A stretch of DNA of 64,000 bases from Rusavskia elegans. Its lineage: Eukaryota; Ascomycota; Lecanoromycetes; Teloschistales; Teloschistaceae. The stretch's first letter is position 1. The number at the start of each line of letters is the position of its first letter. A program made the position numbers and the translations under genes. The stretch lies in the NCBI GenBank assembly GCA_011316305.1, contig SAUG01000026.1:124001-188000 (forward strand), in the 5' to 3' direction. Positions 29,985 to 38,708 of the stretch are shown one piece after another. The notes under the pieces were generated by a model. The model was not told the DNA's origin. It saw nothing but the letters and a program-made list of their open reading frames with translations, and did no database searches.

Positions 29985-30890
29985 AGCCTACAAAAAGTTT
30001 GGATTTGTCGTTCGATATCATTGCGTTTTAATCTGTCCTAAAAAGCGATAGTAACGTATATTAGATTGAAGGCCTATATACGCTGTACGGTTGCTTCAGA
30101 ACTCAGACCTATACCGTCGAAATTTAAGCGAGATTAAAGAGTGTTAGAACTAGAGTCTAGTAGTTACTCTATCTAGCTAGACCCTAAAAATTTCGTCGGT
30201 CGCAGGTCTGAATTTAAGACTACGAATTTCGGTCAGGTTAATACTCGTAATTTCCCGAAAAGTCCCTCTTCGTCTAACGGTTAAATACAGATTTAACTAA
30301 GAATCTAAGTCTACTAAACCCTTCCCGCCGCGAGATTTTTATCGTCTCTAGAGCTGTCTTCTAATATCGAGGCCCTTATCGCGTTTTCTCCAGCTTTTCT
30401 AGCTCTTGACGTCGAAAAAACTCGATTTTCGACGTTTTTTCGACGTTTTTTCGAGAATCTCTACGAAATCTTAAGCTTTTATCTCTATTTCTCGCTCCGT
30501 CGCTAGCTAGAGCTTAGATCTAGGCCCGGAAAGGCTTTTTATCGTAGGAGATAAAAGGCGTATTCTCGTCGTTAATATCGACGAAAAAGAGAGATTTCTT
30601 ACTAAGATTGCGACACGAGGAAAAACGGGAGAGAAAAGAAAAGACGTCTCGATAAATAGAGATCTAACTTACTTAACCTCGTTATTGATTCTGTACGACT
30701 ACGTAGAAGAAAAAAAGAAATTTCGAGAAAAAACGTAAACAAACGAGTATTAACCTAGTAGAAAATCCGGGTATTAAGCTCAGACTCCCTACTAATATCG
30801 TATTAGTCAGCTTTTTCTAGGCTTGGCATACACGTTTTACCCGGGCATGACTATGACGATATTATATAGGGAGTCTGAGAGCTGAGGCAA
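29985..30890. mobile_element. AT-rich, RIP-like mutated repeat relic
   Basis: Composition changes sharply from the flanks. TpA, TpT and ApA are abundant, CpA and TpG almost vanish, but CpG remains common (for example repeated CGACGTTTTTT near 30427-30455). CpA-to-TpA loss with CpG kept is the signature of repeat-induced point mutation in Pezizomycotina, which acts on duplicated DNA. No open frame survives, so the original element cannot be named; a transposon is the likely source. The right end carries a 101-base inverted-repeat hairpin. Confidence 0.7.
30779..30879. repeat. 101-bp terminal-inverted-repeat hairpin (MITE-like)
   Basis: CTCAGACTCCCTA at 30779-30791 pairs perfectly with TAGGGAGTCTGAG at 30867-30879. 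After a short mismatch, TAATATCGT pairs with ACGATATTA. The central 55 bases, or so, do not pair well. This is the layout of a miniature inverted-repeat element or a transposon end. Confidence 0.75.
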
Positions 30891-31448
30891 CTGTACGGAT
30901 GATCAACCCTCCGCCAAGCCTCGAGTCGGGACATATTTCCCCTTGCAATCACCAAACTCCTATCTGAAGCAAGTCAGTCGCCACTTCGGAGACTCCAATG
31001 TCTGGACATGATTAACGGCATGGACCGATCGAAATGCATTTGGTGTACCGCACTTTGATCTGTTAGTATGCTCATTGAGGCCCATTTAACAGTGACACAG
31101 AGCAGTCGGCCTGAAGTATCCGCTTTGGAGGCCATGTAACACGTGGCCAACGAAATCTTGGGAACAATACCTGGGTAGGCGGTACCGTTATCTTGATATA
31201 GGACGCTTCCTATCCTTCCGTAAGTCAGACAAGCTTTCACAAAGCATCACCGAGAGATGAGTTCACCGCAGCATTGGTTCTTCATTTCCGCGTGCTTCCC
31301 CTATCGAATAGAAGGGCTGATTTGCTGTTCAAAGAAAGCTATTCATAAACCACATGCATGCATTTTTAATGACAGGATGCATACAGTATCATGATCGATC
31401 CGGAAAATCAAAGCCATCACATGCTCGCAACCATCTGATACAATCTTC
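30891..31448. other. Intergenic in accessory island
   Basis: About 560 bases of normal composition after the AT-rich relic. No gene is supported. Confidence 0.5.
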
Positions 31449-32006
31449 TTAGAACCCATGGCCCATGCTCTGTTGATGTCCTCGGCCTCGACGTCCACCG
31501 GCCTGACCATGGCCTCGGCCGCCGCCGCCACCATGTCTTCGCTCTCCTGGATGTCCAGGGGCTCGCTCGCGTCCACCTCCACCGCCACCGTGTCTTCTAT
31601 GGCTTTGTCCTCCTATTGGTGGCCCACCTCCAGGCAGTATTATGCGCCATGGGGCAGCCTCATCGAGGAATCCCTCAAGTATCTCTTCATAGAATGGTTG
31701 TAGGAATCGTCGAACTTGACGCGGATCCGGTTGTCCATCATAGCCCTTGTCGGCAGCAATCTCAACTACTCCCTGGCCTTTCGCATTTTCACACCCTCCT
31801 CCAGCGCCACAGCCTTGCTCTGGATGGTCACACCGATGGGGACCGCCAAAAATTTCGAACATGATTTAGTGCCACGGTCCAGGTCGTGGTCCACCAGCAA
31901 GGCGGGGAACGCTGAAATCAATGATCTGGCCATATTCATCCTCGTATGTGACCAGTTTGCCGTCATCGGCCCGCTCTCTACCACCTCTGTGACGACCGTG
32001 AGCCAT
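31449..32006 (-). pseudogene. Island family member 1 (H-x4-C-x5-C-E protein), in-frame stop
   Basis: The minus strand reads one continuous frame from MAHGRHRGGRERADDGKL at 32006 to HQQSMGHGF at 31449, broken once by TAA at 31866-31868. Downstream of the stop it reads MFEIFGGPHRCDHPEQGC, then GAGGGCENAKG, giving H-x4-C-x5-C-E as in the three neighbours. After an acidic helical part (RRFLQPFYEEILEGFLDEAA) the tail is Gly/Arg/His-rich (GGGGGGRERAPGHPGERRH). No plausible intron removes the stop in frame. It may be a pseudogene, may start at the ATG at 31862, or may rely on readthrough. Function unknown. Confidence 0.6.
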
Positions 32007-32148
32007 GGCGGCAGGCGGATGAAATAGAAGTGGAGTAGGATATGTCGTTTGCCTTTTTCTTGTTGCTCTGTGAGAATCTTGATGAAGATACTCGTGTAGT
32101 GCCGACCTGTTGAAGAGCAAGAGAAGGTAAAAAGCTGATGGCGGAAAA

Positions 32149-32159
32149 CCTTATATACC
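32149..32159 (-). promoter_or_regulatory. TATA box GGTATATAAGG of island gene 1
   Basis: The minus strand has GGTATATAAGG 143 bases upstream of the ATG at 32006. The same 11 bases occur upstream of island gene 2 at 33561-33571. A strong TATA box is uncommon in this window. Confidence 0.6.
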
Positions 32160-33560
32160 GGCTCAGCCCATAACCAGAGAGTCATACTTGAGAGGCAACG
32201 AAAAGCCCCAGTCACACGAAATCCTACGTAATACACCAAGACTATCCAGTCGATGATATGCTACTATTTACAAGACTCATACTTCGGCTCATGGTGAAGG
32301 CATCAACGCAGCAGCGGTGCTCGAAATTGTACAAACCTCAAACACATTTCGTCGATGAAGGCAATGTGATACTGCGTGGGAATATGCTTAGATTATCATA
32401 CAGGTACCATCTAATCCTTCATCAAACGACGACTAACGCTATCCCAGGGTATGGATCACACGTGATGTAACGTCTTTAACGTCGAGACGTCGACAGTATT
32501 GTCATGGGACAGCAAAGCCAGTCTACTCAACCGGGCGCACGAAGGCCTCCCCGATGGTCATTCAGATCTTTCGGTGGTAGTACATCCCAACTGAAATTCA
32601 TACTCATGTCAGTGAGCTACACCCGACAATGAAGTACAGAATAATGAACCCGGCTCGGCTCAAGAGACGTGGTATGGCATTATGATGAAAGGTTCTTGTA
32701 TGTGCTGTGTCGTCTCATGAGAAAGTTTGCGCCACCCCCAAAGCCCTTTGAGATAACAACTGAGGCGAGTGCACAGTAGATGTGTACAATCGTGATAATA
32801 TTGAGATGATCTATGAAATCTATGTGCATGAAGAAGGAAGTAGGGCCAGTAGGGCTGGCCCTATGACGCTAACCACTCTAGGTTAGCATCCGCTGATATG
32901 ATAAGAACCCAGCCAATGAGCAACCGTAACAACAACCTACACAATCTTGTTCAAATCTTGTCGAGGAAGGTCATAATAAATTTGTCGGATTAAGAGCACT
33001 GAAAAATCAGCAAACGCGTTCACCAAATCGCTACCATCATCCCAAAGTTCCAGCCGCAAAGCACGATTTCATGCACAGAAGTGCTTAACACAATGCGAAC
33101 CTCATAAGTATCTACCCACCACGACACATACGAAGATATCCTTTGTTCCTTTGACAGTTATTCTCAGCTTGGCAATCCGTCCTCTGGACAGCAAACAAGC
33201 CTGGAAGGCATATAAGCACATGACTGTCCACACAAAAAGTGATAACAACTCTGTCGGTGTAGCCGATCCCTAATATTTGTCGATCCCTCTTCTCTTCTTT
33301 TCTTTACTTCGAACATATCGAACAGTTGGTCCTGTTTCATCTAGTAGGGCGAAGACCGAATACTGTTGACCCCTTATTTTCTGTCGAAGAGTTTCATGTG
33401 CATTGTGCTTTATATCATCACTTCTTAACAACATTGTTGGGAAGAGATTATCATTGGTCTATACTCTACTTGATATATTTCTTCAGGGCAACGCGTCTTA
33501 ATTTCGTCAGTCGAAGTCATCAGTTTTCGAAGGAAATGATGAAGGGACATCTTTCGAAGG
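32160..33560. other. Intergenic of island genes 1 and 2, with tandem hairpins
   Basis: The region lies between two divergent paralogues. Two adjacent perfect hairpins are at 32841-32863 (arms TAGGGCCAG/CTGGCCCTA) and 32868-32887 (arms GCTAACC/GGTTAGC). No coding region is supported. The stretch 33281-33560 is probably upstream DNA of island gene 2. Confidence 0.5.
32841..32887. repeat. Two adjacent perfect hairpins
   Basis: Nine-base arms with a five-base loop, then seven-base arms with a six-base loop, only four bases apart. No tRNA T-loop follows, so this is not an intact tRNA. Confidence 0.7.
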
Positions 33561-33571
33561 GGTATATAAGG
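33561..33571 (+). promoter_or_regulatory. TATA box GGTATATAAGG of island gene 2
   Basis: The element lies 214 bases upstream of the ATG at 33785, followed by a pyrimidine-rich leader. It is identical over 11 bases to the element upstream of island gene 1. Confidence 0.65.
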
Positions 33572-33784
33572 GCAGCTTGGGTCCTTCTTCGTCCTTCCTT
33601 TCTTCAACCTCCCAAACCTTCGAATTTTCATACTTTTCCACCAACTCCACATTGCAAGTATCGATCAATCAACCTCTCAACCAAACAATCATTCCTTCAC
33701 TCAGCCAAGATATCAGACTAGGATAACCAACTACCTAGCAATCGTCTTCAAGTCCCCGAACAAAACTACAAACAACCAACCAAG

Positions 33785-34765
33785 ATGCCCCGCTACGGTT
33801 ATCCAAGGCACTCATACATTGGTCGCGGCGCTCCAGTGTACTACGACCCACTCACTGGGGAGTACTACGACAACCCCTCAGACGAAGACGACTACTACGG
33901 GTACGACTACGGATACACAATGCCTGCTGGTCGCACAGATTATGAGAACGCACTGCCTGCCTGTTACGCAGATGGTGCACCGCTCTCACCCCCCACGGTA
34001 TGCCATTCAGGCTGCCGCAACCTAAGCCACCGGATACCGTCCGGAGGTCTTCCGGAAGGAGCTTCCCTCGGTGGATGCCATCAGGTTGCCCTCGAGGAGC
34101 ACATCTGCCTAACCCATGTCGCAGGGGGCTGTTTTGATGGTGGGATATGCGAGCGTCTAAATCAACGCATCACGATGGAGACGATTGCGCATATTGGCTA
34201 TCCGGCTTCGTCGACGGCAGCATTGAGTAGGCGACAGCGGGTGCGGGTTGCCGCTGGGTTGCCTGCTGGTCCGGCTGATCCCCCTCCTTCTCCTGCCCCT
34301 GGGATGCATGCGGCGCAAGGGGTACGTGAGCGGCGAGGCGGACAGTATGAGCAGTGGGGATATGGCCAGGAACGTGGTAGTGCTGCACACCGAAGCCGCG
34401 AAGGAGCACCTCTTCGACGGCCTCGTGGACTGGACACATTCGAGGATGGTCCCGTAATGAGAGGAGGCCGCGGAGAAGGTGGCCTTAGAGGCAGGCCACG
34501 AGAACCTAGCGGAGGTTTCGTCTTGCCAGATGAGGTCGAGGAGGACCATATGATGGAAGGAAGTGGCCCCGTTGACCTGGGTGGGCGTCCCCATGGTAAT
34601 CGACGTCACGAAGCCGCTCAACCTGGGCCCAGCAGACGTGTCCGCGGACCGGAAGGAGGACACAGAGGCATGGGCGGACCTAGCCGTGGACATGGACAAG
34701 GTAGTGGAGGGCGCGACATGGTTCCTCGTGACTACGATTTTGAGGGCCAAGGTCGGAGAAGATAG
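33785..34765 (+). CDS. Island family member 2 (H-x4-C-x5-C-E protein)
   Basis: Unrecognised protein of 326 residues with no signal peptide or membrane segment. Residues 1-45 are Tyr/Asp/Gly-rich (PVYYDPLTGEYYDNPSDEDD). A module at about 95-162 reads GCHQVALEEHICL, then H111-x4-C116-x5-C122-E123, RLNQRITMETI, and QRVRVAAGLPAG. Island gene 3 matches it along this whole length (RVARGYPAG at the end). Residues 165-326 are Gly/Arg/Glu-rich with RGG-like steps (MRGGRGEGGLRGRP, GGHRGMGGPSRGHGQGSGG). The conserved His and Cys suggest a small metal or redox site, and the tail suggests nucleic-acid binding; both are inference. A TATA box lies 214 bases upstream. Confidence 0.75.
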   Translation: MPRYGYPRHSYIGRGAPVYYDPLTGEYYDNPSDEDDYYGYDYGYTMPAGRTDYENALPACYADGAPLSPPTVCHSGCRNLSHRIPSGGLPEGASLGGCHQVALEEHICLTHVAGGCFDGGICERLNQRITMETIAHIGYPASSTAALSRRQRVRVAAGLPAGPADPPPSPAPGMHAAQGVRERRGGQYEQWGYGQERGSAAHRSREGAPLRRPRGLDTFEDGPVMRGGRGEGGLRGRPREPSGGFVLPDEVEEDHMMEGSGPVDLGGRPHGNRRHEAAQPGPSRRVRGPEGGHRGMGGPSRGHGQGSGGRDMVPRDYDFEGQGRRR

Positions 34766-35821
34766 GCTTGAGTAGCCTATTGTATGCTTGAAAGGTCGGA
34801 TCGATCGAAAATGGCGCATAAACGCACGGAATGAAGTTCGACAAGAGGGAATGGGCTGTAAATCTCATTCATCTAGACAGCCTGAAATAACAAACCAACA
34901 TCTATACGAATAAGATGAACACATCAATGTGTGAAATAAGCAAGCCTTCCTACCAATCAATACCCCTCTGCTTTGACATCCAGCACACCAAATGTGAAAG
35001 CCTTATGAGAAATCCAGATCCATAATCCTTGACTATACACCACCCTGGCTACTTTCGCCAAATAGTCTGCCTTTGCGCACACTGAGGAAAAGCCAGCCAG
35101 CCCCCTTAGAGCAGTGTGCTGGGGACTCCTTCCTTCTCAAAGCTTCCGATTGATCCTATGAACTTGGTAGTAGTTCCAGCGGAGCATATGGCGGACGACT
35201 ATAAACATACTACGCTTTTCACTCTCTTGCGATATCATATTTACCACCGGCAGCAGTATAAACGGGAGTGGTAGGTAGCCGATAAATAAGAAGAGGACCG
35301 TGGATTCTTACCTTCCGCGTTGATTTCCTGGGCTGAGAGACGACGTATCGATGCACCGTCTATAACCGAGCTACAAACAAATCCGTCTTGAGTGGTGGTA
35401 TTCAAATTACTGTAAACCTCCAACAGATCTCAAATACCCACTAAGATCAAGTCAACTGTAGGGCCCCCGTTTTGGTGGGTTTGTGAAGGTTCACAAATAC
35501 AGAGAGGCTACGAGCATCGATATCCCAAAATATAGAACTCATGTTCAAGTTTCATCAGATCTGTTCGCGTCTACTTACTTACTCCCCACCGCAAGCGGTT
35601 CAAAGAAGTCATATTGGCAGCGGCGGTCTGATGTGCCGTCTAAGGATAGTAAATATCGTCTACTGGAAATGCCGATACTATGATTCGGAGCGATATTCTA
35701 AAAACCCTGTCTCGTGGAATTAAGAAAATTATCTCTTAAAGGCTGGACAGTATTCCCCTTTTGTTTTCATCGAACCCCTGAATTCAGGGGTATCCCAAAA
35801 CAGCCTAGCGCTACCCCTGAA
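34766..35821. other. Convergent intergenic between island genes 2 and 3
   Basis: About 1.06 kb between two stop codons. It ends with a perfect 18-base palindrome (35774-35791) and a direct repeat of its left arm (35813-35820). No gene is supported. Confidence 0.5.
35774..35791. repeat. Perfect 18-bp palindrome ACCCCTGAATTCAGGGGT
   Basis: The sequence equals its own reverse complement and contains two back-to-back CCCCT/AGGGG units. ACCCCTGA recurs at 35813-35820, next to the stop codon of island gene 3. Confidence 0.85.
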
Positions 35822-36745
35822 TCAGCTCACGGAGTACGAGTACCGCTCGTCCCAGACGTAATCCGCATTATCGTTGTCGTGGTCATCGTACTCGTTGTCG
35901 TCATTCTCACATCCGTTCCCTCGATCTCCTCCACGGCCCGCGAACTCATATTCCATGCCGTGTCCACCATGCTGGCCACCACCCATTTCGCCCATTCCAC
36001 TGTGGGAGGCATAAGGTCCGCGTCCTCCACCTGATATGATACCACACCTACCACTCCGAACGCTCACGCCATTGGCAAAGCGACTTCCCATCTCGCTTCC
36101 CCCAACAGCACGGCGTCGCTGGCCTCTACCCCCCATCTCACTCCCCCCAACAGCCCGCCCTCGCATGCGTCCGCTCCCACGCCCAGGCCCACCAACCCAC
36201 TCACCCTCATCCCCAATCCCCAACACCCCCTGCCCAAGATTCCCCTGCCCCGAACCCCGCCGTCGCCCACCATCCTGATCCCCATCCCCATCCCCATCCC
36301 CTCTCAACCCAGCCGGATACCCACGCGCAACCCTCAGCGCCTGTCCAATACTCAAACCACGAGGATCCACGCCTCGTTGCCGGAGTTCACGGAGGGTGGA
36401 GCGGTGATGGAGACGCTCGCAGCGGCCGTGGCGGTAGCATCCACCGGGGACGTGCCGGAGAGTGATGTTTTCTTTTTGGGCGGCGCGGTGGATGGGGCCG
36501 AGCGGGCGGTTGGAGGTGGGGTAGGGGTGTAGGTTGTATGTTTTGGGTGAGGAGGGGGAGGGGTGGGGTTTGTATTTATGGGGGTAGGAGGGGGGGTCGT
36601 GGTGGGTGTTGAGGTGGTAAGATCGCGCCGGGGGAGGAGCGTATATGTCGTAGACTGCGGCTGGTGGAAATGGGTAGGGGAATATTGCTGATGGTTCATA
36701 ATCGTCTGGTGAAGATCGTTGGTGGCGAGTGAGGCAGTTACCCAT
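35822..36745 (-). CDS. Island family member 3 (H-x4-C-x5-C-E protein, possible lipid anchor)
   Basis: Unrecognised protein of 307 residues. It begins MGNCLTRHQ, which fits an N-myristoylation site (Gly2, Thr6) with Cys4 available for palmitoylation, so membrane attachment is possible. Residues 20-85 are Pro/Tyr/His-rich. The module at about 83-145 reads PIHRAAQKENITL, H98-x4-C103-x5-C109-E110, RLHHRSTLRELRQRG and ALRVARGYPAG, parallel to island gene 2. The tail is Gly/Arg/Asp-rich with an internal repeat (RAVGGSEMG twice) and an acidic end (ENDDNEYDDHDND). The sense strand is almost free of G in the first third and very G-rich later. Confidence 0.75.
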   Translation of the reverse strand: MGNCLTRHQRSSPDDYEPSAIFPYPFPPAAVYDIYAPPPARSYHLNTHHDPPSYPHKYKPHPSPSSPKTYNLHPYPTSNRPLGPIHRAAQKENITLRHVPGGCYRHGRCERLHHRSTLRELRQRGVDPRGLSIGQALRVARGYPAGLRGDGDGDGDQDGGRRRGSGQGNLGQGVLGIGDEGEWVGGPGRGSGRMRGRAVGGSEMGGRGQRRRAVGGSEMGSRFANGVSVRSGRCGIISGGGRGPYASHSGMGEMGGGQHGGHGMEYEFAGRGGDRGNGCENDDNEYDDHDNDNADYVWDERYSYSVS

Positions 36746-37418
36746 GCTGGTTGGTTGGTCGGTCGTTCGGATGGAGGGAAGAAGATGGTGGACTGTGAGG
36801 TGAAGTACTGATTTGGGGTTGGAGGGTGGTTTGGAGGTCGAGGAAATGAGCAGGAAGAAAGTTGTTCATAGACCCAATGGAACAGACCTTGTCACATCCA
36901 CCGCAAGCGTCGAGTTCGTCAGAGTGTTGAGGTGCGAATAAAAAACTAACATCATCCTTAGGGTTTCGTATCACCAGAATAATGTGTTGAGACCTTCTTG
37001 ACACTAGAGAAAGAACTGATATCATTGCGTACTCGTCGGAAGACTTTGTATGAACCAAAGAAAGTAACTCTACACTCTTGAGAAAAGGTATGCATCGAGA
37101 AAATTGCCGTCACAGAGGAGTTGAGACCATAAACTGTTATGTTGGAGAAAGCAGAGGTAAAAGTGTAATCCTTTCTTGCATCTATTGCTGTAGCAATATT
37201 GAGGAGAGAAAATCCATGAGAAATTGCAAGGGCAGCTGTGGGTGAAAGTATTCTTTGTGGAATCTTACTGAGACAGCCCTTCTCCTTAAGTGTGCTCTGC
37301 CGAGCTATGTTTCGTTGTGATCATGTGAGTAAAGCTGCTCACATGTGTCTCTTCGTTCGACCAGGGGTTCCAGTATGCTTTTCCCACCAAAGGAAGCAGA
37401 CGCTAAGACGGTGAGCCC
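36746..37418. other. Intergenic between island genes 3 and 4
   Basis: About 670 bases holding the upstream region of island gene 3. No TATA element like those of genes 1 and 2 is visible, and no open frame is convincing. Confidence 0.5.
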
Positions 37419-38708
37419 TCACCTGCCCACGACACACCATACGATCATACCGAAATCAATCCCATTGAATCCATCCTCCTGAAATCCCGTTGCCGAACGG
37501 CCCACCGCCCATTGCGCTGCTTTGATGAGTTGGCTCCACGGGTGCACCGGCGGCCTCGCCATGTCTCGCATTGTTGAGTTGATCTCCAGTCGCACTGCGA
37601 GGTTAGTCCGAGGGAGCCTGAGATACGGTGGCTCGGTCCGTTGCTTGAGCTGTCCCGGGTATGCCGCGACGAGGGAGGAGAGATGCTGGAGTGGTAACTC
37701 CCGCACGGTATAGTGCTTCGTCCAATTGAGCCCGAATCCATGACACTCTGCGGGCAGCGCGCGCTGAAAGTGGTGAGGTACTTCAATTGTGGCTAGTCTA
37801 GCACGGCGCCGTGCTTCTTGCAATTGAGCTTGTGGTGTAGGGGTCCGGTTCGCTTCTTGACCACCCGCAGGCATAGGGCTCTGAGGGGGGCGAGATACTG
37901 CATTTGCTGTTCCTGCGCGTCGTCGTGTTTCTTCTGTTTGAGCCTGGGATACGGTGGGCTGGCGTACTTCTTGACCGCCGTCGGGCATCGCGTTCTGAGG
38001 GGGAAGAGGTCCAGCAGCAGCTGTTCTAGCATGGTGCTGTACTTTTTCTGCTTGAGCCTGTGACGCGGTTGATCGAACACCTTCGATAGCTTGGCGTCGC
38101 AGGACTTCCGCGTGCAGTTCATCTACCCGAACTGTAAAATGTACAATATGGTCTTTAAGTATCTGTTTATAATATGGCATCTCATCTTGACCCGCTGTCT
38201 CGAGCTGGCCGGGAGCAGGTAGTCGAGCCCTCCTATAACGTCCACAAGCCCTAGGTTGAAGAGGCAGCTCTGTCGCCATCAGCAAGGCGTCCCGACCCAC
38301 TACATGCTGAAGACCGGACATGGAAAGCAGACGTTGGACGGTAAGCCGCTGGGCGATTTCGCAGGTTCCACCCTCATGGCACCCACCGGGGATGTGGGAG
38401 AGCGCAATTCCTTCCTCCTCTGCGATCTGGTGGCAACGGCCGATGAGTTGATTCCCCTCGATAGCTTGGGCTGGTGTTGTAGCAGGGGTCTTTCGCTGTT
38501 GAGTGTGCATCCCGCCTGTTTGACGCTCCTCTGGGTTCTGATTGTTAGGCAACGGGTGGTGGGAAGTCATCCCGTCTGCCCGACGCTCCCCAGGCTGTCG
38601 CATGTTGGGTACTGGATGGTGCGAAATGAGACTCTCAAGATAAGAGTCCTGGTCACCTCCACGAGGTGGATGAGGACGAGCGATGCTAGGCACTAGTCCT
38701 TGTCGCAA
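37419..38708 (-). CDS. Island family member 4 (H-x4-C-x5-C-E protein with internal repeats)
   Basis: Unrecognised protein of 429 residues. The N-terminus contains two copies of SHHP-[VL]-PN-x(3)-P-[GE]-ER (about residues 29-62). The family module reads RCHQIAEEEGIAL, H105-x4-C110-x5-C116-E117, IAQRLTVQRLLSMSGL. From about 215 to 320 there are three tandem units of about 35 residues built on SQAQ-x-E and MP-x-GGQE. The C-terminal part is different from genes 1-3: it is not Gly/Arg-rich but looks folded (PAECHGFGLNWTKHYTVREL, LPRTNLAVRLEINSTMRDM, IDFGMIVWCVVGR). It is the most divergent member, so it may be a fusion. Function unknown. Confidence 0.72.
   Translation of the reverse strand: MRQGLVPSIARPHPPRGGDQDSYLESLISHHPVPNMRQPGERRADGMTSHHPLPNNQNPEERQTGGMHTQQRKTPATTPAQAIEGNQLIGRCHQIAEEEGIALSHIPGGCHEGGTCEIAQRLTVQRLLSMSGLQHVVGRDALLMATELPLQPRACGRYRRARLPAPGQLETAGQDEMPYYKQILKDHIVHFTVRVDELHAEVLRRQAIEGVRSTASQAQAEKVQHHARTAAAGPLPPQNAMPDGGQEVRQPTVSQAQTEETRRRAGTANAVSRPPQSPMPAGGQEANRTPTPQAQLQEARRRARLATIEVPHHFQRALPAECHGFGLNWTKHYTVRELPLQHLSSLVAAYPGQLKQRTEPPYLRLPRTNLAVRLEINSTMRDMARPPVHPWSQLIKAAQWAVGRSATGFQEDGFNGIDFGMIVWCVVGR

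Follow-up and report, generated by a model that had tools for sequence, protein, structure and literature searches.

The window considered here, a stretch of 64,000 nucleotides (C140:124001-188000 in the 44.16-Mb assembly of 217 contigs that served as the genome searched), contains four neighbouring genes, numbered 1 to 4 below, whose products carry the motif H-x4-C-x5-C-E. An earlier note on this DNA had placed one such motif in each gene, and there they are: a stop-free scan of the six frames of the window gives exactly four matches, one per gene. Thirty windows simulated by a first-order Markov model and likewise translated in six frames gave a mean of 0.17 matches and a maximum of 1, far below the number observed. 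Chance or low-complexity resemblance is ruled out by these simulations together with conservation of the motif across species. In genes 2 to 4, the motif lies within a module of about 70 residues, predicted with high confidence to be a four-helix domain, and the module is embedded in mostly low-complexity proteins that in genes 1 to 3 are rich in glycine and arginine.

Genes 2, 3, and 4 are, judging from their alignments, true paralogues. They have in common both the helix that precedes the motif and the stretch that follows it, with pairwise local alignment z scores of 11-22, and none of the 300 shuffles made for each pair reaches the observed score. A further copy on C74 joins them in one family by pairwise alignment (z 11 to 27), with a z of 26.8 for its module against that of gene 3. 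The region after the motif had been claimed as common to genes 2 and 3; so it is, and gene 4 has it too. The shared helix also stands, but as H-[QR]-x-A-x2-E-x-I-x-L, gene 3 having Ile where [HC] had been claimed. As for all four genes forming one family, this holds for genes 2 to 4, but gene 1 is only distant kin (z 4.6 with gene 2, 1.6 with gene 3, and 3.6 with gene 4) and is taken up below as a second branch, B, the others making up branch A. A tree of 31 module rows and 75 columns (the relative P0025 was left out) supports the gene-4 branch at 100/100 and the branch of gene 3 and the C74 copy at 98/96. Forks among the gene-2-type proteins are weaker, 84/92 and 81/78, the relatives P0015 and P0027 are unplaced, and the long branches make fine placement unsure.

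The motif is retained by homologues, a matter on which the proposed family depended. Thirty-two branch-A modules were aligned (28 proteins, genes 2 to 4, and the C74 copy). In the numbering of gene 2, the H, C, C, and E of the motif (H111, C116, C122, and E123) are present in 32, 31, 32, and 30 of them, the other two having Asp in place of E123. E105, G114, G115, and G138 are found in all 32, and H99 in 31. The exceptions are P0025, which lacks H99, apparently through a faulty gene model, and P0005, which lacks C116. Of 14 pairs compared, 13 show stronger conservation in the module than in the tail, the odd pair being P0020/P0021, at 88% versus 89%. A model built by AlphaFold2 from 77 residues and 29 rows has a mean predicted local distance difference test score (pLDDT) of 89.8 and a predicted template modelling score (pTM) of 0.77, with helices at 8-15, 32-48, 52-56, and 60-67; an earlier model of 116 residues and 23 rows had a pLDDT of 77.3 and a pTM of 0.71.

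The earlier note knew of no named domain with this pattern, and the searches agree. Genes 1 to 4 match no Pfam family at E≤1, the C2H2, CCHC, and TAZ fingers included. Among nine relatives there were two Pfam matches, both below cut-off, and the C193 copy had none. Genes 2 to 4 and two relatives had no match in NCBIfam, and the literature search turned up no title or opening of an abstract that names the module family. A sequence search of solved structures with the module gave nothing convincing, nor did comparison of the module model with structures in the PDB (Foldseek best E 1.5; VIA on 18 chains only). Perhaps the module belongs to a known zinc-finger or adaptor domain but has diverged too far for sequence tools to recognise it. 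Its set of His and Cys residues and the loop between its helices do bring to mind helical domains braced by zinc, TAZ among them. This explanation is considered unlikely.

The family had been thought specific to a lineage, and sequence searches support this as far as they reach. Three protein searches, each scoring the roughly 8,000 best word-sharing candidates, found 15 proteins at E≤0.01, 22 at E≤1, and 23 at E≤10, giving 28 distinct homologous proteins overall. All 19 with organism names come from Xanthorioideae: Rusavskia, Flavoplaca, Calogaya, Xanthoria, Squamulea, and Polycauliona. As far as searched, then, the family appears restricted to lichen fungi of this subfamily. PMC9907504 describes 24 mycobiont genomes sampled to cover the three subfamilies of Teloschistaceae as well as Letrouitiaceae. 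Four species in its table are among the matches: Flavoplaca oasis, Xanthoria mediterranea, X. steineri, and X. aureola. Xanthomendoza fulva (also Xanthorioideae) and the genera of other subfamilies are not among the matches, the presence of their proteins in the database being unchecked. The earlier note had proposed looking for clustered homologues in sister species, and part of the cluster does seem to recur: contigs of equal length carry members with consecutive or nearly consecutive locus numbers in three genera (LQ339_003848/003849, Q9226_003125/003126, and Q9169_000229/000232), which suggests, but from names only, that members of the family sit together there.

Table 1. Positions of the genes, modules, and related features, in window coordinates unless a contig is given.
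Feature	Position	Strand	Remarks
Gene 1 with upstream part, branch B	31449..32006	-	ATG 32006, in-frame TAA 31868-31866, module, Gly/Arg-rich tail, stop 31449; translation
Gene 1 motif HPEQGC-GAGGGCE	31788..31826	-	
Gene 2, 326 amino acids	33785..34765	+	Single open frame, best conserved member
Gene 2 module, residues 90-166	34052..34282	+	Candidate ligands H99, H111, C116, C122, plus E123
Gene 3, 307 amino acids	35822..36745	-	N-terminal part in other frame in P0024
Gene 3 module	36305..36505	-	Boundaries counted from His codons; closest to C74 copy
Gene 4 open frame	37419..38708	-	First in-frame ATG 38603
Gene 4 module	38247..38447	-	Boundaries counted from His codons
Stretch matching C-termini of P0020-P0023	37459..37734	-	Other frame than gene 4 open frame, stop inside
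First His codons of motif, genes 1, 2, 3, 4	31826, 34115, 36454, 38396	-, +, -, -	
TATATAAGG box	32149..32157	-	151 bases upstream of gene 1 ATG 32006
TATATAAGG box	33563..33571	+	222 bases upstream of gene 2 ATG
Further copy	C74:14609-14815		Open frame of 272 amino acids, branch A, clear
Further copy	C205:286499-286705		Gene-1-like, clear
Further copy	C193:195400-195624		Weak: E 0.0018 from C205, E 4.6e-5 in reverse direction, no stops
Broken branch-B copy (L014/L015)	C41:159548-159767		Stops and frame changes

The four genes had been taken as healthy and divergent. This picture is not supported: genes 1, 3, and 4 have apparent breaks, and gene 2 is the sole clearly intact member. Its frame is kept across genera to a C-terminal end of the type YDFEGQGRRR in several species, and 11 of the 19 gene-2-type proteins have a motif [YS]-[DEA]-F-E among their final 25 residues; the remaining eight include partial proteins and others with another frame or a fused stretch in the tail. 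An N-terminal C-x3-C-x4-H stretch is kept in 17 of the 19. P0005 (Calogaya) has lost the first Cys of this stretch as well as C116, a joint loss that may point to a link between them. Antisense to gene 2 there is an open frame of 220 amino acids (34157-34819, minus strand), probably a by-product of composition.

Gene 1 had been given a start at 31862, but an earlier ATG, at 32006, opens the same frame (MAHGRHRGG...), which the TAA then cuts after 46 codons. The stop interrupts GPWH*I; the branch-B relative on C205 reads GPWHRI at this point and matches across the region with one TAA. An intron that hides the stop was considered and rejected by eye, as the C205 copy also has the GPWH that precedes the stop and the Cys motif that follows it. 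That copy is the only sequence with which gene 1 pairs strongly (z 26.5). The C205 copy itself pairs with gene 2 at z 6.9, gene 3 at 3.8, gene 4 at 4.7, the C74 copy at 3.7, and P0015 at 9.3. When profiles of the two branches are compared by hhalign, the probability of a relationship is 96.3% (E 1.7e-9 for a single comparison, over 54 columns), and 75.6% (E 2.4e-5) when only the C205 sequence is used. By profile comparison, gene 1 is thus placed as a member of a distant second branch of the family, in which a His and three Cys are found in three sequences.

The suspected breaks in genes 3 and 4 come to light through their relatives. P0024 matches the module of gene 3 at 65 of 67 residues, but its first 106 residues fit another frame best (77.8% over 81). 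The open frame of gene 3 begins with MGNC, at 36745, a frame that P0024 does not have. MGNC resembles the start of a myristoylated or palmitoylated protein, and a myristoylation-type start for gene 3 was dropped in view of the match of the P0024 N-terminus to the other frame. In gene 4, the codon that serves as the start in five of seven gene-4-type relatives is ATC (38684-38682), so that the usual start is absent. The "folded-looking end" attributed to gene 4 turns out to be off-frame relative to the C-termini of four orthologues, P0020-P0023, which match the other frame over 89-92 columns with identities of 51.7-66.3%; P0020 and P0021 can also be aligned, less well (43-45%), right through the open frame of gene 4. 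The frame that P0022 matches contains a stop in the window, and an intron is rejected here because the two P0022 matches overlap in window coordinates. P0017 and P0018 are 87-90% identical to gene 4 but are themselves short models, of 181 and 172 amino acids.

The number of copies elsewhere in the genome (Table 1) is a lower bound, since only the best candidates are scored in the contig search. On C160 there is a lower match with three stops (E 0.05), and matches on C75, C139, C207, and C35 are weak (E 0.04-0.6). An AT-rich dispersed repeat lies at 30001-31000 of the window, where indices of repeat-induced point mutation (TpA/ApT) are 1.45 and 1.29; a query of 30300-30900 matched 42 places in the genome, itself included, the best other copies being 94% identical. 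A scan of viral contigs, made with a viral origin of the family in mind, found nine stretches matched by pattern, none of which was confirmed.

The family appears to evolve by duplication and decay, a birth-and-death process. The breaks in genes 1, 3, and 4 could be decay or, each singly, errors of assembly. One might go further and suppose that this is a young family consisting mostly of relics, with little present function except in gene 2. The in-frame stop of gene 1, the off-frame end and absent start of gene 4, the shifted N-terminus of gene 3, and the C41 copy with its stops and frame changes would all fit. Nevertheless, gene 2 is 93% identical, over 95% of its length, to its orthologue and closest protein, from the lichen fungus Rusavskia elegans (Teloschistaceae), has all 67 module residues in common with it, and keeps one frame across genera. 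In the module, genes 3 and 4 match their nearest relatives (P0024, P0017, and P0018) at 96-97% identity, the tails changing more, and single-base assembly errors are possible at each of the breaks. On this evidence, a family made up mostly of relics is somewhat unlikely.

What, then, might the module do? The four fixed His and Cys residues make a His/His/Cys/Cys metal site possible. In such a site, H99 (in helix 1), H111 and C116 (in the loop), and C122 (at the start of helix 2) would hold one metal ion, probably zinc. The metal would pin the loop that joins helix 1 to helix 2, giving a small intracellular docking module whose ligand might be a partner protein or a nucleic acid. The Gly/Arg-rich tail, together with the YDFE-type C-terminal motif in gene 2 and many orthologues, would provide weak contacts with RNA or protein. 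The genes would then encode regulated nuclear or ribonucleoprotein (RNP) adaptors of the fungus, neither enzymes nor secreted proteins. This proposal, a metal-braced intracellular module on Gly/Arg-rich proteins that serve as nuclear or RNP adaptors, is the preferred reading but is offered tentatively, as possible rather than probable.

Alternatively, C116 and C122 might form a reversible C-x5-C disulfide bond, tuned by His, so that the module would sense oxidation as the lichen dries and is rewetted. The C-x5-C does stand at the start of a helix, and its cysteines are present in 31 and 32 of the 32 modules. Promoters with a TATA box, common in regulated genes, are consistent with a sensor as well. 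The sequence TATATAAGG occurs exactly twice in the window, upstream of genes 1 and 2 (expected 0.10; 0 of 100 shuffles reach 2), a figure that is no blind test, since the sequence was first spotted by eye and then counted. The C74 gene has TATATAAGG 186 bases upstream. Within 300 bases of gene 3 or gene 4 no TATA[AT]A was observed, and the C205 copy has TATATAATC. A redox module, however, leaves unexplained H99, H111, and the Glu, which are as fixed as the cysteines, and no Pfam redox family is found in genes 1 to 4 or the nine relatives. Because the second His, H99, is equally fixed (31/32), a metal is favoured over a redox centre, and the disulfide switch is regarded as quite unlikely.

The adaptors are proposed to be nuclear or part of an RNP, and not secreted, because they have Gly/Arg tails and no signal sequence is obvious. 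The tails of genes 1 to 3 are as rich in these residues as the earlier note had said (Gly 0.37, 0.23, and 0.30; Arg 0.16, 0.17, and 0.12), and RG dipeptides number 9 in the 161 residues of gene 2's tail, 7 in 155 for gene 3, 3 in 70 for gene 1, and none for gene 4. Lineage-restricted, fast-changing genes, clustered beside repeats, are typical of effectors in other fungi, and one might imagine secreted symbiosis effectors with disulfide-bonded cysteines, facing the alga. By inspection, however, the N-termini of genes 1 to 3 and the C74 copy are polar or rich in Pro and Tyr, with no clear hydrophobic signal stretch. Moreover, long Gly/Arg tails are unusual for secreted effectors. The idea is highly improbable.

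Two relatives bear on a nuclear role. P0015, from Calogaya cf. arnoldii, has a finger-like stretch behind its module and an internal repeat around the finger. The gene in the window's genome that is the counterpart of this stretch has weak C2H2 matches (E 0.00076, below cut-off). The tail of P0015 also resembles two other genes there, one encoding an Stb3 domain (E 2.6e-35) and the other with Ebp1_C just under cut-off, and P0027, also from Calogaya cf. arnoldii, has by inspection most of the same tail. The C2H2-like, Stb3, and Ebp1-like genes look transcription-related. From these hints and the Gly/Arg tails, a nuclear or RNP role is the likeliest guess.

Several points weigh against a metal-braced nuclear adaptor. 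The stretches of P0015 match the Stb3 and Ebp1-like genes outside their named domains and so say little about the role of the module; because of this, the proposed mechanism has been rated slightly lower. Neither P0015 nor P0027 itself has a Pfam finger, and their gene models could be wrong. No Pfam zinc-finger match was obtained for the window's proteins, and the C205 protein gave only a weak match to PAS_4 (E 0.0074, 16.9 bits versus a cut-off of 23.1). H111 is not kept throughout branch B. The C205 copy has a Cys nearby, but hhalign pairs this extra Cys with C108 of gene 2, so that it may not be a clean swap of ligand for H111. The set of conserved residues was drawn from sequences found by similarity, a route that itself favours conserved positions, with branch B left out. 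Finally, in 4 of the 13 pairs whose N-terminal parts can be aligned, that part exceeds the module in conservation, so constraint is wider than the module.

Taken to its fullest extent, the proposal would be that a metal-braced domain of four helices, not described before, originated in a single subfamily of lichen fungi, was duplicated into a cluster of two branches, one His-His-Cys-Cys and the other His-Cys-Cys-Cys, and now heads TATA-regulated, Gly/Arg-rich nuclear or RNP regulators found only in these orange lichens. This whole chain is not likely to hold. Nonetheless, a confidently predicted domain with no convincing match in Pfam, NCBIfam, or the PDB, caught in the act of duplicating and decaying, offers a case through which to consider how folded domains originate, and the family is a concrete candidate for genes peculiar to Xanthorioideae. 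Its importance would be greatest if its expression were tied to the lichen state.

The same family is already on deposit, as relatives of genes 2 and 4: Q9199_007356 of Rusavskia elegans, and LQ339_003849 and LQ339_003848 of Xanthoria mediterranea. The relatives in Xanthorioideae metagenome-assembled genomes are known only as "hypothetical protein", with no precomputed Pfam domain. C2H2 and CCHC fingers have similar numbers of His and Cys residues, but in the module the order is His-His-Cys-Cys and the spacing is different, and none of genes 1 to 4 matches them in Pfam. RGG-box RNA-binding proteins resemble the products of these genes in having Gly/Arg-rich tails with RG repeats, but in genes 1 to 4 Pfam finds nothing further, for instance no RNA-recognition domain. 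The module's spacing, H-x11-H-x4-C-x5-C, differs from that of TAZ, which it does not match in Pfam, but it has in common with TAZ and other zinc-braced helical adaptors a set of helices joined by a loop that bears His and Cys.

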